Of a DNA stretch of 42,326 bases, positions 176-21,844 are shown piece after piece. Below the pieces are notes generated by a model that saw nothing but the letters and a program-made list of their open reading frames with translations, made no database searches and was not told where the DNA came from. Origin of the DNA: Caldilineaceae bacterium SB0661_bin_34 (lineage in GTDB: Bacteria; Chloroflexota; Anaerolineae; Caldilineales; Caldilineaceae); the NCBI GenBank assembly GCA_009841145.1, contig VXMJ01000022.1:1-42326 (forward strand), in the 5' to 3' direction. Both the position numbers and the translations under genes were made by a program. Position 1 is the first letter of the stretch; each line of letters starts with the position of its first letter.

Positions 176-1576
176 ATGCCCAAGTCTGCCACATCCCACC
201 TAAAGGGGCTGGCCAAGTCCCACCGCGTCGCCTTGTCCCCTACGGACAGGCAGGCAACACTGATGATGGAGCATGCCGGATGGGCGCGGGTGGCTGCCAA
301 CTGGGCGCGCGGCAGGTTCCAGTTGGCTTGGTTCGGGCGGACCGACGAGCGCAATGCCGGCGAGTGGTATGCCCATGTGGATGTGAACCCGGACGGCGGC
401 CAGTGGATGTCGGACATGGACCTGCGCAAGGACTTCAACGCCATCAAGTCCGATCTGTTCGAGTGGTCCTGCCCCTTGTCCCAGTACGTGTCCAAGAACG
501 CCATCGCTCACATGGGCAGGGGGCTGGACTCCTGGAGCGAGTACTGCAAGGAGCGGAAGCGCGGCAAGCCCCGCCGCAAGGTCGGCTTCCCGCCGCTCCG
601 CAAACGCCGCCGCAAGATCGCGTTCACACCGTCCAACGGCCGCAACAGCATCCAGGTGGAGGGCCCCAACGTGCGCCTGCCCAAAATCGGCTGGGTGCGG
701 ATGCGCGAGGAACTGCGGTTCGAGGGCGACATCATGGGCGTGACCGTCAGCAGGAAGGGCGGCCGCTGGTTCGCTTCGTTCACGGTGGACACATGCCTGC
801 CCGCGCCGGCAGCCCGTCCTGGTCCCGACACCGGCATCGACATGGGCGTAAGTACGCTGGCCACGCTGTGGGACGGCGAGGAAGTGGAGGAGATCGCCAC
901 CCCCCAGGCCCTGGCACCCGCCTTGAAGTCCCTGCGCCGTCTGGACAAGGCCATCGCCCGCAGTATCCACACGCACGGCAAGCACAACCCATCCCAGCGC
1001 AGGGACATCCTGTACGCCAAGCGCAACCGGTTGCACTTCGACATTGCCAATCTGAGAGCCGACCACCATCACAAGGCCACCACGCAGATCGCCAAACGCG
1101 GCGGCACGGTGAAGGTGGAAACGCTCAACGTCGACGGCATGAAGAAGAACCGCAGGCTGGCCCGCGCCCTCAGCGATGCCGGCATGGCCGAGTTTGTGCG
1201 GCAGCTGGAGTACAAGTGCCATTGGTACGGAACGGAGTTCCGGCGCGTCGACCGCTGGTACCCGTCCTCGAAGACGTGCAGCCATTGCGGGGCCGTGAAG
1301 CAGTCCCTGCTGTTGTCGGAGCGCACCTACCGCTGCAACCTGTGCGGCTTCGAGTGCGACCGGGACGAGAACGCCGCCCGCAATATCCAGGCGTACACGG
1401 GTCACAAGGAGCCGGCCCGAACCCTGAACGCGCTCCCCGGGCCGGCGAGGTCCGTCGGCGAAGAAATGGACGTGGAGGCCCGTAGGACGCGTCGCCGAGA
1501 GGCATGCGCAAGGCCGGGGAAGCGTCTACCGGACAACCCATCTGCAATACCGACAGGTAGTGGCGGACAGGTATAG
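176..1576 (+). CDS. tnpB: TnpB-family RNA-guided endonuclease
   Basis: Transposon-encoded RNA-guided DNA nuclease (OrfB/IS1341 type) of 466 residues. The RuvC-like catalytic residues are all visible: Asp222 in GIDMGVS, Glu315 in VETLNVDG and Asp397 in DRDENAARNI. A zinc ribbon lies between the second and third motifs (Cys368, Cys371, Cys387, Cys390). The N-terminal half is basic, as expected for RNA and DNA binding, with the cluster LRKRRRKIAF around 141-150. ATG 176 is chosen because AGGAGC lies nine to ten bases upstream. No tnpA (Y1 transposase) is nearby. It is only distantly similar to the other tnpB genes here, and no terminal inverted repeats were found for it; its left end may lie outside the window. 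The 250 bp after the stop codon hold no recognisable gene and would be where its guide RNA ends. Confidence 0.88.
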   Translation: MPKSATSHLKGLAKSHRVALSPTDRQATLMMEHAGWARVAANWARGRFQLAWFGRTDERNAGEWYAHVDVNPDGGQWMSDMDLRKDFNAIKSDLFEWSCPLSQYVSKNAIAHMGRGLDSWSEYCKERKRGKPRRKVGFPPLRKRRRKIAFTPSNGRNSIQVEGPNVRLPKIGWVRMREELRFEGDIMGVTVSRKGGRWFASFTVDTCLPAPAARPGPDTGIDMGVSTLATLWDGEEVEEIATPQALAPALKSLRRLDKAIARSIHTHGKHNPSQRRDILYAKRNRLHFDIANLRADHHHKATTQIAKRGGTVKVETLNVDGMKKNRRLARALSDAGMAEFVRQLEYKCHWYGTEFRRVDRWYPSSKTCSHCGAVKQSLLLSERTYRCNLCGFECDRDENAARNIQAYTGHKEPARTLNALPGPARSVGEEMDVEARRTRRREACARPGKRLPDNPSAIPTGSGGQV

Positions 1577-3013: not shown

Positions 3014-3045
3014 TGATCTTTGGGGCTTATATACGATGGTTGACA
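3014..3045. repeat. 8-bp target duplication plus left terminal inverted repeat of tnpB element A
   Basis: TGATCTTT at 3014-3021 recurs exactly at 4482-4489. The 24 bp at 3022-3045, starting GGGGCTTATAT and ending GTTGACA, match the reverse complement of 4458-4481 at 20 of 24 positions. The tnpB stop codon (TAA, read on the minus strand) lies inside this repeat. Confidence 0.8.
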
Positions 3046-4373
3046 CCACGCATATCCGGTTCACGGGTCGCGGGAGTCCCTTTGGCTGGCCTTGCGACCG
3101 ACCAGGGAGGGAGCGCTCCTCGCCGTGCAGCAGCCCCAGTCCCGCGGGCCGAAACGGGTGCGGGCGGAAGTCCCGCCCGCACCAGGATGTTGATCGCCGC
3201 ATTGTGGTCGGCGTTCGCCCGGAACCCGCAGGCCCCGCATCGGAACACCGCCTGCGACGGTCGGTTTGACTTGGCGGTGTACCCGCATTGGCTGCAGGCT
3301 TGCGAAGTGTAGGCCGGCTCGACGAACCGCAACTCGCTGGCCTTGTAATCGAACTTGCGCTCCAGCTGTCCCCAGCCGGAGGCCAGGATGGCACGGTTGA
3401 GTCCCGCTTTCTGCTTCACGTTCTTGCCGGGGTTCTCGACCGTGCCCTTCGCACTCTTCGTCATGGCCTTGGTGTTCAGGTCCTCGAGCACGACGGTGTG
3501 GGCCGTGTCCGCCACCTTGCGGCTGATTTGGTGTGTGGCGTTGTCCCGGCGTCGGGCGCGCTTGCGCTGGAGTTTGCGCAGTTTCCCGCCAGTCCCGCGG
3601 CGGCGTTGGGAGCCCTTCTGCTGCCGGGCCATCCTGCGCTGGTACCGCTTGATCTTCGCGTCCTCGACGGTCGTGTCGGGGAGGGCATGGACTTCGCCCG
3701 TGCTGTCCGTGGCCTGCCCCACGTTGCGGTCAACGCCGACCGCTCCGGACTCCGCGGGTTGGCACACATCGGGGTGGTCGACCGGCACCTCAAACACGAT
3801 GTAGGCGTACCACTTTGGCTGCTTGCCCTCCGATTCCTGCCGTACGCGGACGGTCAGCGGCTGGCCGTCGGCATACCGGTGGATGGGACCGAGACGCGTC
3901 CAGCCCATCTTGGGGATGTACAGGCGGCCGTCCTCGATGCGCACGCGGGACGGGAGGGTGAAGGCGGGCTTGGTGTAGTGCCTGGCCTTGTACTGCGGAC
4001 GCCCATGGTCCGGACGGTCCGGGTCGAAGAACGCGGCGTAGGCATCGCCCAGGTACTTGCAGGTGTAGCGAACGATTTCGTAGCTGTAGTCCTGCAGCCA
4101 TTCGTTGCCGGGTGCGTTCCGCAACTGCGTGAACCGCTGGCCCAGCGTAAAGAAGGTCGGACTGCCGGGACCATCCCCCAGCTTGCCGAACGCCTTCCAT
4201 GTGCGGTAGTCACGCTCGTGCCCGGCCAGCACGTGGTTCCAGGCGAACCGGCAGGCTCCGGCCAGTTGTTCGAGGTACCGGCCGTTCGTGGCCGTACCGG
4301 GGTACAGACGCACGCGCAGGGTCCGTATGACGGTCGGGGGCTCCTGCGTTGTAGACTTGGGGATGCTGGCCAT
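3027..4373 (-). CDS. tnpB: TnpB-family RNA-guided endonuclease (element A)
   Basis: RNA-guided nuclease of 448 residues from ATG 4373 (MASIPKST). The RuvC-like triad is present: Asp215 in GVDRNVG, Glu297 in VLEDLNT and Asp389 in NADHNAAINIL. The zinc ribbon has CSQCG and CGACG. An arginine/lysine-rich segment precedes the Glu motif. The reading frame opens further upstream inside the terminal repeat, but the later start has a Shine-Dalgarno (AGAGG) and matches where similarity to the copy at 19501-21009 begins. After the last catalytic motif there is an odd tail of about 50 residues rich in Ala, Arg and Pro. It ends in the terminal repeat and covers the DNA block expected to encode the guide-RNA scaffold. 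All catalytic residues are kept, so the nuclease is probably functional. Confidence 0.88.
   Translation of the reverse strand: MASIPKSTTQEPPTVIRTLRVRLYPGTATNGRYLEQLAGACRFAWNHVLAGHERDYRTWKAFGKLGDGPGSPTFFTLGQRFTQLRNAPGNEWLQDYSYEIVRYTCKYLGDAYAAFFDPDRPDHGRPQYKARHYTKPAFTLPSRVRIEDGRLYIPKMGWTRLGPIHRYADGQPLTVRVRQESEGKQPKWYAYIVFEVPVDHPDVCQPAESGAVGVDRNVGQATDSTGEVHALPDTTVEDAKIKRYQRRMARQQKGSQRRRGTGGKLRKLQRKRARRRDNATHQISRKVADTAHTVVLEDLNTKAMTKSAKGTVENPGKNVKQKAGLNRAILASGWGQLERKFDYKASELRFVEPAYTSQACSQCGYTAKSNRPSQAVFRCGACGFRANADHNAAINILVRAGLPPAPVSARGTGAAARRGALPPWSVARPAKGTPATREPDMRGVNHRI
3061..3190 (-). ncRNA. Candidate omega (guide) RNA scaffold of element A
   Basis: TnpB proteins work with an RNA made from the 3' part of tnpB and the element end. 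Here the 3' end of the gene shares a conserved nucleotide block with element B, including CGCCGTGCAG, AGCCCCA and TCCCGCGGGCC. Both blocks end at the identical TCACGGGTC (3061-3069 here). An 11-bp stem (3157-3167 pairing with 3173-3183) lies within it. The true 3' end is uncertain: it could be at TCACGGGTC or at the terminal repeat. Small-RNA sequencing would decide. Confidence 0.4.
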
Positions 4374-4463
4374 GGTGCCTCTACACCGTGTCCGGTTGAG
4401 GGCCCGGTTCGCAGTCGGGTCCTCTCTTTCGCAGTAATTGTAGCACAAGAGTTCGACTGTCAA
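4374..4463 (-). promoter_or_regulatory. Promoter and structured leader of tnpB in element A
   Basis: Reading on the minus strand, TTGACA (4463-4458) inside the right terminal repeat is followed after 15 bp by TACAAT (4442-4437), an extended -10 preceded by TGC. A hairpin follows (4416-4424 pairing with 4398-4406, one mismatch). Next to the start codon, GGTG/CACC (4384-4387 and 4374-4377) encloses a loop TAGAGG holding the Shine-Dalgarno. The terminal repeat therefore probably supplies the -35 box of tnpB. The 15-bp spacing is short of the ideal. Confidence 0.45.
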
Positions 4464-4489
4464 CTATTCGATATAAGCCCCTGATCTTT
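4458..4489. repeat. Right terminal inverted repeat of tnpB element A plus 8-bp target duplication
   Basis: The inverted repeat 4458-4481 reads, in reverse complement, GGGGCTTATAT at its outer end and TTGACA at its inner end. It is followed by TGATCTTT (4482-4489), identical to 3014-3021. Confidence 0.8.
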
Positions 4490-18550: not shown

Positions 18551-19495
18551 TTGATGTTTACATACTTTGATCTCCATGCGAACTCCCGGCGCCTAGCCGT
18601 CCGTAAGGCCGACCTTCAAGGAAGCGTGTACCTGGAGTTACGGATCGCTCAGGGAGAAATCGCCGGCGAGATCAACAACGCCTTGTTGCCCAACGCTCCT
18701 CGGTGGTCACCTGACGGGTCACGGATTGCCTTCGGTAGCAACGACGGCCTTCTGTACGTATACACGGTGGGGGACGCTGCTCCGGAGATTGTCTTTCAAC
18801 GCGAGTCTCTGCAAGCCGGGTTCCCCGAATGGTCCCCTGGGGGTGGCTCGTTGGCATTTTCGGCCTGGGAGCAGGCTTCCCATGGTCCCCCAAACATCCA
18901 TCTTCTTGACCTCCGGACGGGATTGACAACCCAACTGACGGACGATGTCAACACGGTGGACCGCTTTCCTGTATGGTCACCTTCCGGCCGCTGGGTTGCG
19001 TTCCAGCGCCAATACCTTGACGAGGTGGAGAGGACACCGTGGATCTGTGTCGTCGATGTCGAGTCCGATAACTGTCGCGCCGTGGGCCGCGGGGAACTTC
19101 AACGGTTCGGATGGAGTCCAAACTCTTCCCTCCTGCTGGTCAAGGATGGACAAGGTGACTCCACGAGGCTTCGAGCCATTCGCATGGTGGACTCTGTGGT
19201 GGTCTGGACCCACGAAGACGCACTCATTCACGGCGGGGCGTTCTCCGCCAACGGTGACAGCATCCTGCGCATCAGGGAAACCGATCTTTCCTGGATCGCA
19301 TTCCCTGCCGGCGAGCTCAACGACTGCCTGCCTCTGCCGGCCCCTGTTGCAGGATACTTCACCGGCCCGAACATCAACCTTGGCACCGAGGACTCCGTCT
19401 ACTTCCTTGATGAATGCTCGTCCATCAATCGGTGGCAAGCCGGTGGTCAGGTCGCCACCGTTCTACGGGAAGAGCCGGAACCCAAGCCATCGTTT
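18551..19495 (+). pseudogene. N-terminal part of interrupted S9 family peptidase (beta-propeller)
   Basis: First 315 codons (TTG 18551 or ATG 18554) of a prolyl-oligopeptidase/acylaminoacyl-peptidase-type protein. WD40-like PD40 repeats are visible: APRWSPDGSRIAFGSNDG, GFPEWSPGGGSLAFSAW, RFPVWSPSGRWVAFQRQ, QRFGWSPNSSLLLVKDGQ, GGAFSANGDSIL. The propeller normally gates access to the hydrolase domain. The reading frame is cut after KPSF by a tnpB element and runs on through it to a stop at 19807, giving a chimeric tail. The hydrolase half continues in the same frame at 21116. No signal peptide is visible, and the start has no good Shine-Dalgarno, so the N-terminus may itself be incomplete. Confidence 0.8.
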
Positions 19496-19520
19496 GGGAA
19501 TTACATACTTGACCAGGCAC
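19488..19520. repeat. 8-bp target duplication plus left terminal inverted repeat of tnpB element B
   Basis: CATCGTTT (19488-19495) recurs exactly at 21108-21115. The 25 bp at 19496-19520 start GGGAATTACATAC and match the reverse complement of 21083-21107 at 22 positions. The stop codon of tnpB (minus strand TAA) falls inside this repeat, as in element A. Confidence 0.88.
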
Positions 19521-21009
19521 CGGAACCCGGAGGTCCCTGCGCAGTCGGCATGCCTTGTTCACGGGTCACCGAGGTCGATTTGTCCATTGCCAAAGGCAAC
19601 AAACAGGGACCGAGCGCCTCTCGCCGTGCAGAAGCCCCATTCCCGCGGGCCTTCGGGAGCAGGGCCAGACCCCGCGCCAGGATGTTGAGGGCGGCGTTGT
19701 GGTCGGCGTTCGCCTTGTATCCACATGCCACGCACTTGAATGTTGCCTGTGTCCTGCGATTTTCCTGGCCGACATGTCCGCACGATGAGCAGGTTTGGGA
19801 CGTGTAGGCCGCGTCCACATTCACGACATTGCCCGCCTTGTAATCCAGATTTCGTTCCAGCTGACCCCAACCCGTATTGAGGATCCCGCGGTTGAGTCCG
19901 GCCTTCGGCTTCACATTCTTGCCGGGCTCTTCAACCGTGCCCTTGGCACTCCTGGTCATGGCCTTGGTGTTCAGGTCCTCAAGGACCACGGTGTGCGCCG
20001 TGTCGGCCAGCTTGCGGCTCGCCTGGTGGTTGGCGTTCTCCCGGCGCCGCTTCTTCTTGCGTTGCCGCTTCTTCAACTGCCCGCAGATCCGCCGTCCCCG
20101 GTTGGACATGGGCTGGCCGTTGGCCTTGGAGCGCGCCCGCGCCTTGGCCGCACTGCGCTGCTTGCGCTTGATGTTCGCGTCCAGCTTCGGGTCGTCCGGC
20201 ACTTCGTACACTTCGCCTTCGCTGTCCGTGGCCTGGCCGACGTTGCGGTCGACGCCCACGGCACCGGTCCAGGCAGGTTGTTTCAGCCGGTCCGCCGGCA
20301 CTTCATGGAACACGTAGGCGTACCACTTCGGATGTTCCTCGGTCCCTTCCTTGCGGATGCGCACCTGCTTGGCCTTGCAGCCCCGGTACAACCCGCTCCC
20401 TTCCAGACGCACCCATCCCACCTTGGGGATGTGCAATCGGTCGCCGTCCATGCGCACGCCGTCGGGAATGGTGAAGCCGTCGTCCCTGTCGAACTTGGCC
20501 TTGTACTTCGGGAACCCCTTGGGCTTGCCGTCCGACTTGCGCACGCCCAGGGATTGGCCCTGGAACTTGGCCGCGGCCCATGCCTCGAAGAAGCGTGTAT
20601 ACGCGTCGGCCAGGTACTTGGCCGTGTAGCGGAGCGGTGCATAGGGCAGGTCTCCCAACCAGGACAGATCCATATCGCGGTACCGCCGTCCCCAGGGAGA
20701 ACCCAGGAACGCCCGTACCCAGGCGGCATCGGGCCTGCTGCGCAGGTCCGTGAACCGCTTGCCCAGCGTGAAGAACGAGACGGACTTGTCGACGGGCACC
20801 GCACCTTCAATGGCAGCCCCCTTGCCATATTCCTTGTGCAACCGATACCGCCGCTCGCAATCGGCCAGCAGGAGGTTCCACACCAGCCGACAGGCACCTG
20901 CGATCTGCGCGCACAGGGCGGCTTGGGCGCGGCGGTCGAAGCGGATGCGATACCGCTCGCTGCGGACTTCGGTTGTTTTAGACTTGGGGGCAGCAGTCCG
21001 GGTTGGCAT
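19501..21009 (-). CDS. tnpB: TnpB-family RNA-guided endonuclease (element B)
   Basis: RNA-guided nuclease of 502 residues from ATG 21009 (MPTRTAAPKSK). The catalytic triad is intact: Asp254 in GVDRNVG, Glu344 in VLEDLNT and Asp436 in NADHNAALNIL. Zinc ribbon motifs are CSSCG and CVACG. A strongly basic region (KKRQRKKKRRREN) precedes the Glu motif. It shares long stretches with the element A protein, such as SAKGTVE-PGKNVK and LNR-IL--GWGQLER, but it has insertions and many substitutions. As in element A, the C-terminal tail after the last motif is low-complexity and ends in the terminal repeat. The gene runs antisense to the S9 peptidase it interrupts. Confidence 0.88.
   Translation of the reverse strand: MPTRTAAPKSKTTEVRSERYRIRFDRRAQAALCAQIAGACRLVWNLLLADCERRYRLHKEYGKGAAIEGAVPVDKSVSFFTLGKRFTDLRSRPDAAWVRAFLGSPWGRRYRDMDLSWLGDLPYAPLRYTAKYLADAYTRFFEAWAAAKFQGQSLGVRKSDGKPKGFPKYKAKFDRDDGFTIPDGVRMDGDRLHIPKVGWVRLEGSGLYRGCKAKQVRIRKEGTEEHPKWYAYVFHEVPADRLKQPAWTGAVGVDRNVGQATDSEGEVYEVPDDPKLDANIKRKQRSAAKARARSKANGQPMSNRGRRICGQLKKRQRKKKRRRENANHQASRKLADTAHTVVLEDLNTKAMTRSAKGTVEEPGKNVKPKAGLNRGILNTGWGQLERNLDYKAGNVVNVDAAYTSQTCSSCGHVGQENRRTQATFKCVACGYKANADHNAALNILARGLALLPKARGNGASARREALGPCLLPLAMDKSTSVTREQGMPTAQGPPGSGAWSSM
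19559..19690 (-). ncRNA. Candidate omega (guide) RNA scaffold of element B
   Basis: The 3' part of tnpB contains nucleotide blocks conserved with element A (CGCCGTGCAG, AGCCCCA, TCCCGCGGGCC) and ends at TCACGGGTC (19559-19567). Between that motif and the element end lie another 63 bp here but only 39 bp in element A, so the scaffold end relative to the terminus is unclear. If the RNA ran to the element edge, the guide would be the flanking S9 peptidase sequence. Confidence 0.4.
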
Positions 21010-21029
21010 CTTCAACCTGCCTGTCAGGG

Positions 21030-21094
21030 AGCCGCGCGGTGTTGCCAGCACCCGCGGCTTCCGTTCATTATGGCACCCATCCGTGCTTAGTCAT
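21030..21094 (-). promoter_or_regulatory. Promoter and leader hairpin of tnpB in element B
   Basis: On the minus strand, ATGACT (21094-21089) inside the terminal repeat and CATAAT (21072-21067, preceded by TGC) are spaced by 16 bp. A hairpin follows at once: a 7-bp perfect stem AGCCGCG/CGCGGCT (21053-21059 with 21030-21036), partly extended inside. The same box-then-hairpin order precedes the other two complete tnpB genes in this window. Confidence 0.4.
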
Positions 21095-21115
21095 GTATGT
21101 AATTCCCCATCGTTT
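21083..21115. repeat. Right terminal inverted repeat of tnpB element B plus 8-bp target duplication
   Basis: The inverted repeat 21083-21107 (outer end AATTCCC on the plus strand) is followed by CATCGTTT at 21108-21115, identical to 19488-19495. Confidence 0.88.
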
Positions 21116-21844
21116 CTTCACGAAGAGTACTCGGTCGTTTCCGGCGACGGACTCTCGGTACCCGTTCAGCGGTTCATCCCTCCCAACGCCAAGGCTCCAG
21201 CGGTCCTGTATGTTCACGGTGGCCCGGGCACACCGATCAATCCGGACGATGCCACCATGCTTCATCTTCTGGGGGAGGGATACGAGTTTGTCTGCGCGGC
21301 GTACCGGGGCAGCGCGGGGTATGGGCCAAGGCATCGGGGCGCCAACCGCGGAGAGTACGGAAGAGCCGATGTCTGGGATGTTTTGGCCTGTGCCCAGGAC
21401 TGGAAGGAGCGGACGGACGGCTCCCGCCCGTTGATCTTGGCCGGCTACAGCTATGGTGGGTTTCTCGGTCTCCTCGCTCTGTCTCGGGCCAAGGACTTAC
21501 TGGCTGGCGGGATCATCATGTGGCCTGTGACGGGGCTCCATCGCTTCCCCAGCCATGCTCACCGAGCCTTTCCCGAGGAGCGTGAGGATCGGTACCAAGC
21601 ACTGACCGAGCGGTCCCCCGTGGAAAGGGCCAGCCATATTCGAGTCCCGGTCCAGATTTTCCATGGAGCCCTGGATTCTGCCGGCAATATTGAGGAGCTG
21701 TCGGTCATTCAGCAACGCATTCAGACAGCTGGAGGGGATTGCACGTTGAAACTGTTCGATGACGATACACACGCACTGCGCCGGCATCTGGACGAGATCC
21801 ATGCCGACATACTTCGCTTCCTGGGCAGGTTTGAACAAGGGTGA
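21116..21844 (+). pseudogene. C-terminal alpha/beta-hydrolase part of interrupted S9 family peptidase
   Basis: The last 242 codons of the peptidase started at 18551. Joined to the first part, the protein is 557 residues with the complete triad: Ser427 in GYSYGGF, Asp502 in FHGALDSAGN and His534 in DDDTHALRR. The oxyanion-region motif LYVHGGPG and the AAYRGSAGYG strand are typical of S9 prolyl oligopeptidase-like enzymes. On its own it lacks a start codon with Shine-Dalgarno, so it is probably not translated. No disabling mutation is visible in either half, which points to a recent insertion. Precise loss of the element would restore the enzyme. Confidence 0.85.

Follow-up and report, generated by a model that had tools for sequence, protein, structure and literature searches.

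A tnpB-carrying IS1595-type transposon in a Caldilineaceae genome and its probable retention by TnpB

Bacterial TnpB has been described in IS200/IS605, IS607 and IS1341 elements (PMC9956272, PMC10711439). It is normally described together with Y1 or serine transposases. In IS200/IS605 elements the transposon-associated motif (TAM) of TnpB doubles as the insertion motif of the transposase, so that the effects of nuclease and transposase are inseparable. According to PMC8101967 (which cites Siguier 2009), IS1595-family members usually give 8-bp duplications, and GG forms the termini of the related Merlin elements. Here we describe an element that carries tnpB between IS1595-type ends. It lies in a 42,326-nt stretch of DNA, designated as the window, which is contig VXMJ01000022.1 of Caldilineaceae bacterium SB0661_bin_34 (GCA_009841145.1). 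The transposase type concerned duplicates 8 bp and has a symmetric target preference, and an orientation-specific motif at the insertion sites therefore separates nuclease from transposase effects. Such a motif, a G on one side, was found. The best explanation, which we regard as likely on the sequence evidence, is the RNA-guided retention by TnpB of a DDE transposon of the IS1595 type that is non-autonomous and has tnpB as its sole gene.

The element and the interrupted S9 peptidase gene

The element interrupts an S9 peptidase gene on the opposite strand. The features of the locus, including the target site duplication (TSD) and the terminal inverted repeats (TIRs), are as follows.

18551..19495 (+), S9 peptidase codons 1-315, the beta-propeller part; ATG at 18554, Pfam PD40, joined frame
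19488..19495 (+), left copy of the TSD, CATCGTTT; its minus strand, AAACGATG, forms nt 1-8 of the guide predicted for TnpB
19496..21107 (-), the whole element, a non-autonomous IS1595-type transposon carrying tnpB, 1612 bp, with TIR and 8-bp TSD
19496..19513 (+), TIR on the tnpB 3' side, GGGAATTACATACTTGAC; an identical 18 bp stands beside an IS1595 transposase remnant at locus L029
21090..21107 (-), TIR on the tnpB 5' side, GGGAATTACATACATGAC
21108..21115 (+), right copy of the TSD, CATCGTTT
21116..21844 (+), last 242 codons of the S9 peptidase, the catalytic domain; Pfam Peptidase_S9 (E 5e-19), matches to acylaminoacyl peptidases

The host sequence reads ..GCCATCGTTT to the left of the element and CATCGTTTCTTC.. 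to its right. The two element ends, GGGAATTACATACTTGAC and the inverted GGGAATTACATACATGAC, are identical at 17/18 positions, with the consensus GGGAATTACATACwTGAC. The only long gene inside is tnpB; no transposase gene was found within the element, which is thus non-autonomous. The chance of eight bases matching at two fixed positions is 4^-8.

When the flanks are joined at a single copy of CATCGTTT, 18551-19495 and 21116-21844 give a stop-free frame of 557 codons. The separating insert consists of the 1612 bp and the duplicated CATCGTTT, and the element with one TSD amounts to 1620 bp, a multiple of 3. The joined protein has S427 in a GYSYG motif together with D502 and H534, a Ser-Asp-His set in a protein with a propeller and an alpha/beta hydrolase domain. 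Its catalytic part aligns at nearly the same position in acylaminoacyl peptidases of 562-582 residues, indicating a normal length for the joined protein. The syntenic S9 locus of a congeneric genome (G002:C56, L103) has an empty site. The flanks there are ~93% identical to the window on both sides, and the joined window sequence aligns without a gap through the junction (CCATCGTTTCTTCACGAAG vs CCACCGTTCTTTCGCGAAG). The G002 orthologue is itself a pseudogene in which the first ~170 codons are lost or replaced and a frameshift occurs near codon 502; hence the S9 gene seems dispensable.

A previous reading of this DNA by a model that saw only the letters and their open reading frames (the sequence-only reading) had proposed one S9 gene split by a tnpB element, with ends fixed to the base and a Ser427/Asp502/His534 triad plus a beta-propeller in the 557-residue joined protein. 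The joined frame, the PD40 and Peptidase_S9 matches, the three residues, the duplication boundaries and the G002 empty site agree with all of this, and the alignment to S9 family members that it had named as a check gave the acylaminoacyl peptidase matches and an orthologue continuous across the junction. Its statement that neither half shows other damage is correct for the window, but the orthologue in G002 is damaged and the gene seems dispensable. The tnpB cargo was recognized, while the IS1595-type TIR/TSD nature, as opposed to a classical tnpB element, was overlooked. The ends were right; the 17/18-bp inverted repeat and roughly 40 other genomic tnpB copies were missed.

Copies in the genus and the associated transposase

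In each of four genomes of the genus, searches with TnpB returned 37-42 matches; outside these genomes all matches were distant. The compared relatives are metagenome-assembled genomes with contig breaks at the tnpB element repeats. Among copies with both ends, an exact 8-bp TSD is present in 15 intact tnpB elements from the four genomes, and other two-ended copies match at 6-7 of the 8 TSD bases. The exact duplications are always 8 bp, never 7 or 9, and some elements are represented by halves on separate contigs with the same 8 bp at each. This 8-bp rule is common to subfamilies whose TnpB identity falls to about 53% and whose TIRs differ (e.g. GGGGCTTATATCCAATAGTTGAC). A scan for TIR and TSD around distant TnpB relatives (Gluconacetobacter, Asaia, Methylobacterium, Gemmobacter and others in other phyla) gave only noise.

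The terminal GG inverted repeats and the 8-bp target duplication are those of an IS1595-type element, and IS1595 transposases are tied to the same ends. Specifically, the genus has intact transposases matching NF033547 transpos_IS1595 (E 7e-53) and PF12762, with ends such as GGGGATTATATCGAGGGGTTGAC; in L308/L138 the matching transposase (NF033547, E 7e-53) lies inside a 23-bp TIR of the same pattern. The complete IS1595 element L308 has an 8-bp TSD, TATGGTTT (identified by eye), and a small insertion in the left TIR. In the genome of the window, at L029 (2512 and 2698), a truncated transposase-related open reading frame begins 186 bp inside an end that is 18/18 identical to that of the window element. 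Most tnpB elements are 1.4-1.9 kb in size, leaving no room for a second gene of transposase size, and we infer that they are non-autonomous and moved in trans by an IS1595 transposase.

Related elements were also observed. The window contains a second one:

3022..4481 (-), second tnpB element of the same kind, of another subfamily; TSD TGATCTTT/AAAGATCA, CG outside the TSD

It sits just upstream of an M20-type peptidase gene, and its TSD AAAGATCA is preceded by CG. A third, unrelated-looking TnpB gene at 176-1576 (+) is about 32% identical to the TnpB of the element in the S9 gene. L311 (G003:C76:57479-58898) has a 7/8 TSD and ends of the same type, which enclose other cargo, neither tnpB nor transposase; these ends thus seem able to carry other genes too. 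L080 (G000:C33:11564-11807, 244 bp) and L322 (G001:C36:18504-18607, 104 bp) resemble miniature inverted-repeat transposable elements, with a TIR of the same type and near-matching 8-bp flanks. Many contigs of genomes G000-G003 end inside tnpB elements, and shared 8-bp TSDs could join contigs (e.g. L026 with L030).

The one-sided G, the predicted omega-RNA and TnpB

The features that bear on the nuclease are as follows.

21116..21116 (-), putative TAM base G, directly flanking the TSD on its tnpB-upstream side (45/50 vs 14/51 statistic)
19501..21009 (-), tnpB, RNA-guided nuclease family, 502 aa; guided_TnpB, Pfam Cas12f1-like_TNB, RuvC D254/E344/D436
19496..19635 (-), predicted omega-RNA scaffold; helices at about 19624-19628/19560-19564, 19617-19620/19571-19574 and 19610-19613/19575-19578
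19476..19495 (-), predicted guide region, reading outward past the 3' end of the element (AAACGATGGCTTGGGTTCCG); a position only, by analogy with known TnpB systems (PMC8612924)

A G stands beside the TSD at 45/50 tnpB-upstream ends vs 14/51 downstream ends (Fisher p = 7.7e-11). Same-genus TIR ends without tnpB served as the control. At these IS1595-type ends the G occurs in 10/23 cases, or in 7/20 after three recognizable tnpB 5'-end fragments were dropped (p = 7.5e-6 on the 20). An alternative control of 74 Chloroflexota IS1595-type transposase loci contained two with a clear TIR and an exact 8-bp TSD, too few for use. Both edges of the TSD are rich in A/T, which is what a transposase preference would give, and this symmetric target preference is therefore separate from the G. 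In one subfamily the motif extends to CG (14/16 G-bearing ends vs 9/29 in the others, p = 4e-4).

A guide starting at the element boundary would read the TSD and the flank that follows, which places the TAM immediately before the TSD, on that side of the empty site that lies upstream of tnpB. Where the element is in place, the TIR always puts a C immediately before the guide sequence, and self thus differs from the empty site. In the empty allele of G002 an A occupies the putative TAM position and the first bases that would match the guide are altered, so that this allele would not be a target of TnpB.

An alignment of the terminal 140 bases at the 3' end of 27 elements, with all subfamilies represented, reveals three common helices and an invariant GAAC motif. 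Helix cells are paired in 99.1% of cases, with double-sided changes in 8/13 pairs; compensatory cells number 52 vs 16.7 in shuffles, and slid controls are 22-54% paired. The covarying structure stops at the element boundary. A search of the locus against Rfam gave no match. This covarying 3'-end structure fits the expectation for an omega-RNA scaffold.

The protein scores 188.8 bits against the NCBIfam guided_TnpB model (cutoff 100), compared with 113 bits for the IS200/IS605 TnpB model (cutoff 425) and 92 for the IS607 TnpB model (cutoff 350). RuvC residues D254, E344 and D436 are invariant across nine aligned copies, and the ligands of the zinc ribbon are conserved. The dN/dS values between tnpB copies (0.18-0.36) indicate purifying selection; TnpB has thus been maintained without being the transposase, and it looks functional.

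Retention by TnpB, alternative explanations and known systems

From the observed anatomy, shared ends, RNA structure, purifying selection and one-sided G, we infer trans transposition, RNA expression, cleavage and repair; for RNA-guided cleavage next to a TAM, the one-sided G is indirect evidence. An IS1595 transposase acting in trans would recognize the GGG..TTAYATA.. inverted repeats, insert the element and duplicate 8 bp. TnpB would pair with an expressed omega-RNA composed of a scaffold, from the tnpB 3' end and the downstream TIR, and a guide, from the TSD and the flank that follows it. The sequence matching the guide would be preceded by G (CG in one subfamily) in the empty site, and by the element's own C when the site is occupied. 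Consequently TnpB would cut only empty alleles, and repair from the occupied copy would restore the element. The transposase would insert broadly, and insertions without G on the correct side, being unprotected, would be lost over time, so that the one-sided G remains. The broader view that a bacterial IS1595-type lineage captured TnpB and omega-RNA as a homing and retention device, with the one-sided G as a retention footprint on motif-blind insertions, is one toward which we lean somewhat.

Several observations weigh against retention by TnpB. About a dozen two-ended copies have no TSD, which we attribute to recombination, deletion or misassembly; recombination and adjacent deletion are known causes of such copies (PMC11708052). 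In particular, the 3' TSD of the TSD-less copy L168 matches the 5' TSD of L300, which makes L168 a recombinant or a misjoin, and given the contig breaks at repeats, some other copies may be misjoins as well. The G is missing at 5/50 tnpB-upstream ends, and the control set without tnpB is small (20 ends). An intact transposase was found in G001 (contig C348) and not in G000, where the matches are broken or partial, and just one complete IS1595 element was examined in detail.

The main rival traces the one-sided G to an inherent preference of the transposase itself, with the two ends presented differently to the target and TnpB as passive cargo or a modulator of transposition. Some DDE systems do treat their two ends differently, the G is present in all subfamilies, and a single transposase lineage could impose it. 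On the other hand, the two TIRs of an element are nearly identical, the remaining target preference is symmetric, the G is found at just 7/20 IS1595-type ends without tnpB, and tnpB is under purifying selection; we therefore consider this account unlikely, if worth keeping in view. A nested insertion, in which a classical tnpB element jumped by chance into IS1595-type elements with no functional link, appears very improbable. At least one such nesting must have created the combination, but diverged subfamilies in four species keep tnpB close inside the TIRs, with their own TSDs and the G on the tnpB side. IS1595-type ends and tnpB move and diversify together, and the RNA scaffold extends as far as the TIR. 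That the locus is an ordinary IS200/IS605 or IS1341-type tnpB element, which makes no duplication on insertion and has its 8-bp repeat by chance, can practically be dismissed. Isolated transposase-less tnpB elements are indeed common (IS1341 group; PMC9956272), but the 15 exact duplications with TIRs, never of 7 or 9 bp, the scores far below the IS200/IS605 and IS607 cutoffs and the distant TnpB relatives without TIR or TSD speak against it. Among named families, IS200/IS605 (including the IS1341 group) was refuted by the TSD statistics, since TIR and 8-bp TSD are present, and IS607 was rejected on the same features and on 92 bits vs the cutoff of 350.

Two further suggestions of the sequence-only reading concern the age and the fate of the insertion. 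The description of the insertion as recent finds no support as worded and holds only in a relative sense, the closest copy in the genome having 96% DNA identity and a tnpB dS of 0.07. Nor is the insertion supported as possibly reversible, because TnpB, in the role proposed for it, would cut every empty site that is restored, and the insertion looks built to persist. Excision by DDE transposases does not routinely restore the target site.

If retention by TnpB is correct, bacterial DDE transposons can capture TnpB, as Fanzor was captured in eukaryotes, the insertion sites would be direct natural evidence for a decisive role of TnpB in the survival of insertions, and the TAM of these TnpBs may be very short. 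Our literature search, which covered papers outside the subscription journals that carry large TnpB surveys, found nothing relevant on TnpB with IS1595 or other bacterial DDE elements.

Among the described systems, the IS1595 family (PMC8101967) shares with the window element the terminal GG, the TIRs, the 8-bp TSD and same-genus transposases with matching ends, whereas the window element carries tnpB and no transposase. With the TnpB of IS200/IS605 (ISDra2; PMC8612924) it has in common a TnpB family protein, an RNA from the tnpB-downstream end, a guide read from the flank, a motif needed in the empty site and a proposed repair-based restoration of the element. ISDra2 differs in its Y1 transposase, in the lack of TIR and TSD and in a TAM that is the transposase's own insertion motif, while the window element has DDE-type TIRs, an 8-bp TSD and a G (or CG) seemingly not chosen by the transposase. 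In the gene drive of plasmid insertion sequences by TnpB (PMC11870625), cutting of insertion-free copies likewise favours insertion-bearing copies; that work is experimental and concerns IS200/IS605, whereas retention here is deduced from insertion-site statistics. The Fanzor1 and Fanzor2* proteins (PMC3627910, PMC10711439) are likewise TnpB homologues captured by cut-and-paste DNA transposons with TIR and TSD, although those hosts are eukaryotic and other transposase families are involved, while the element described here is bacterial and of the IS1595 type.
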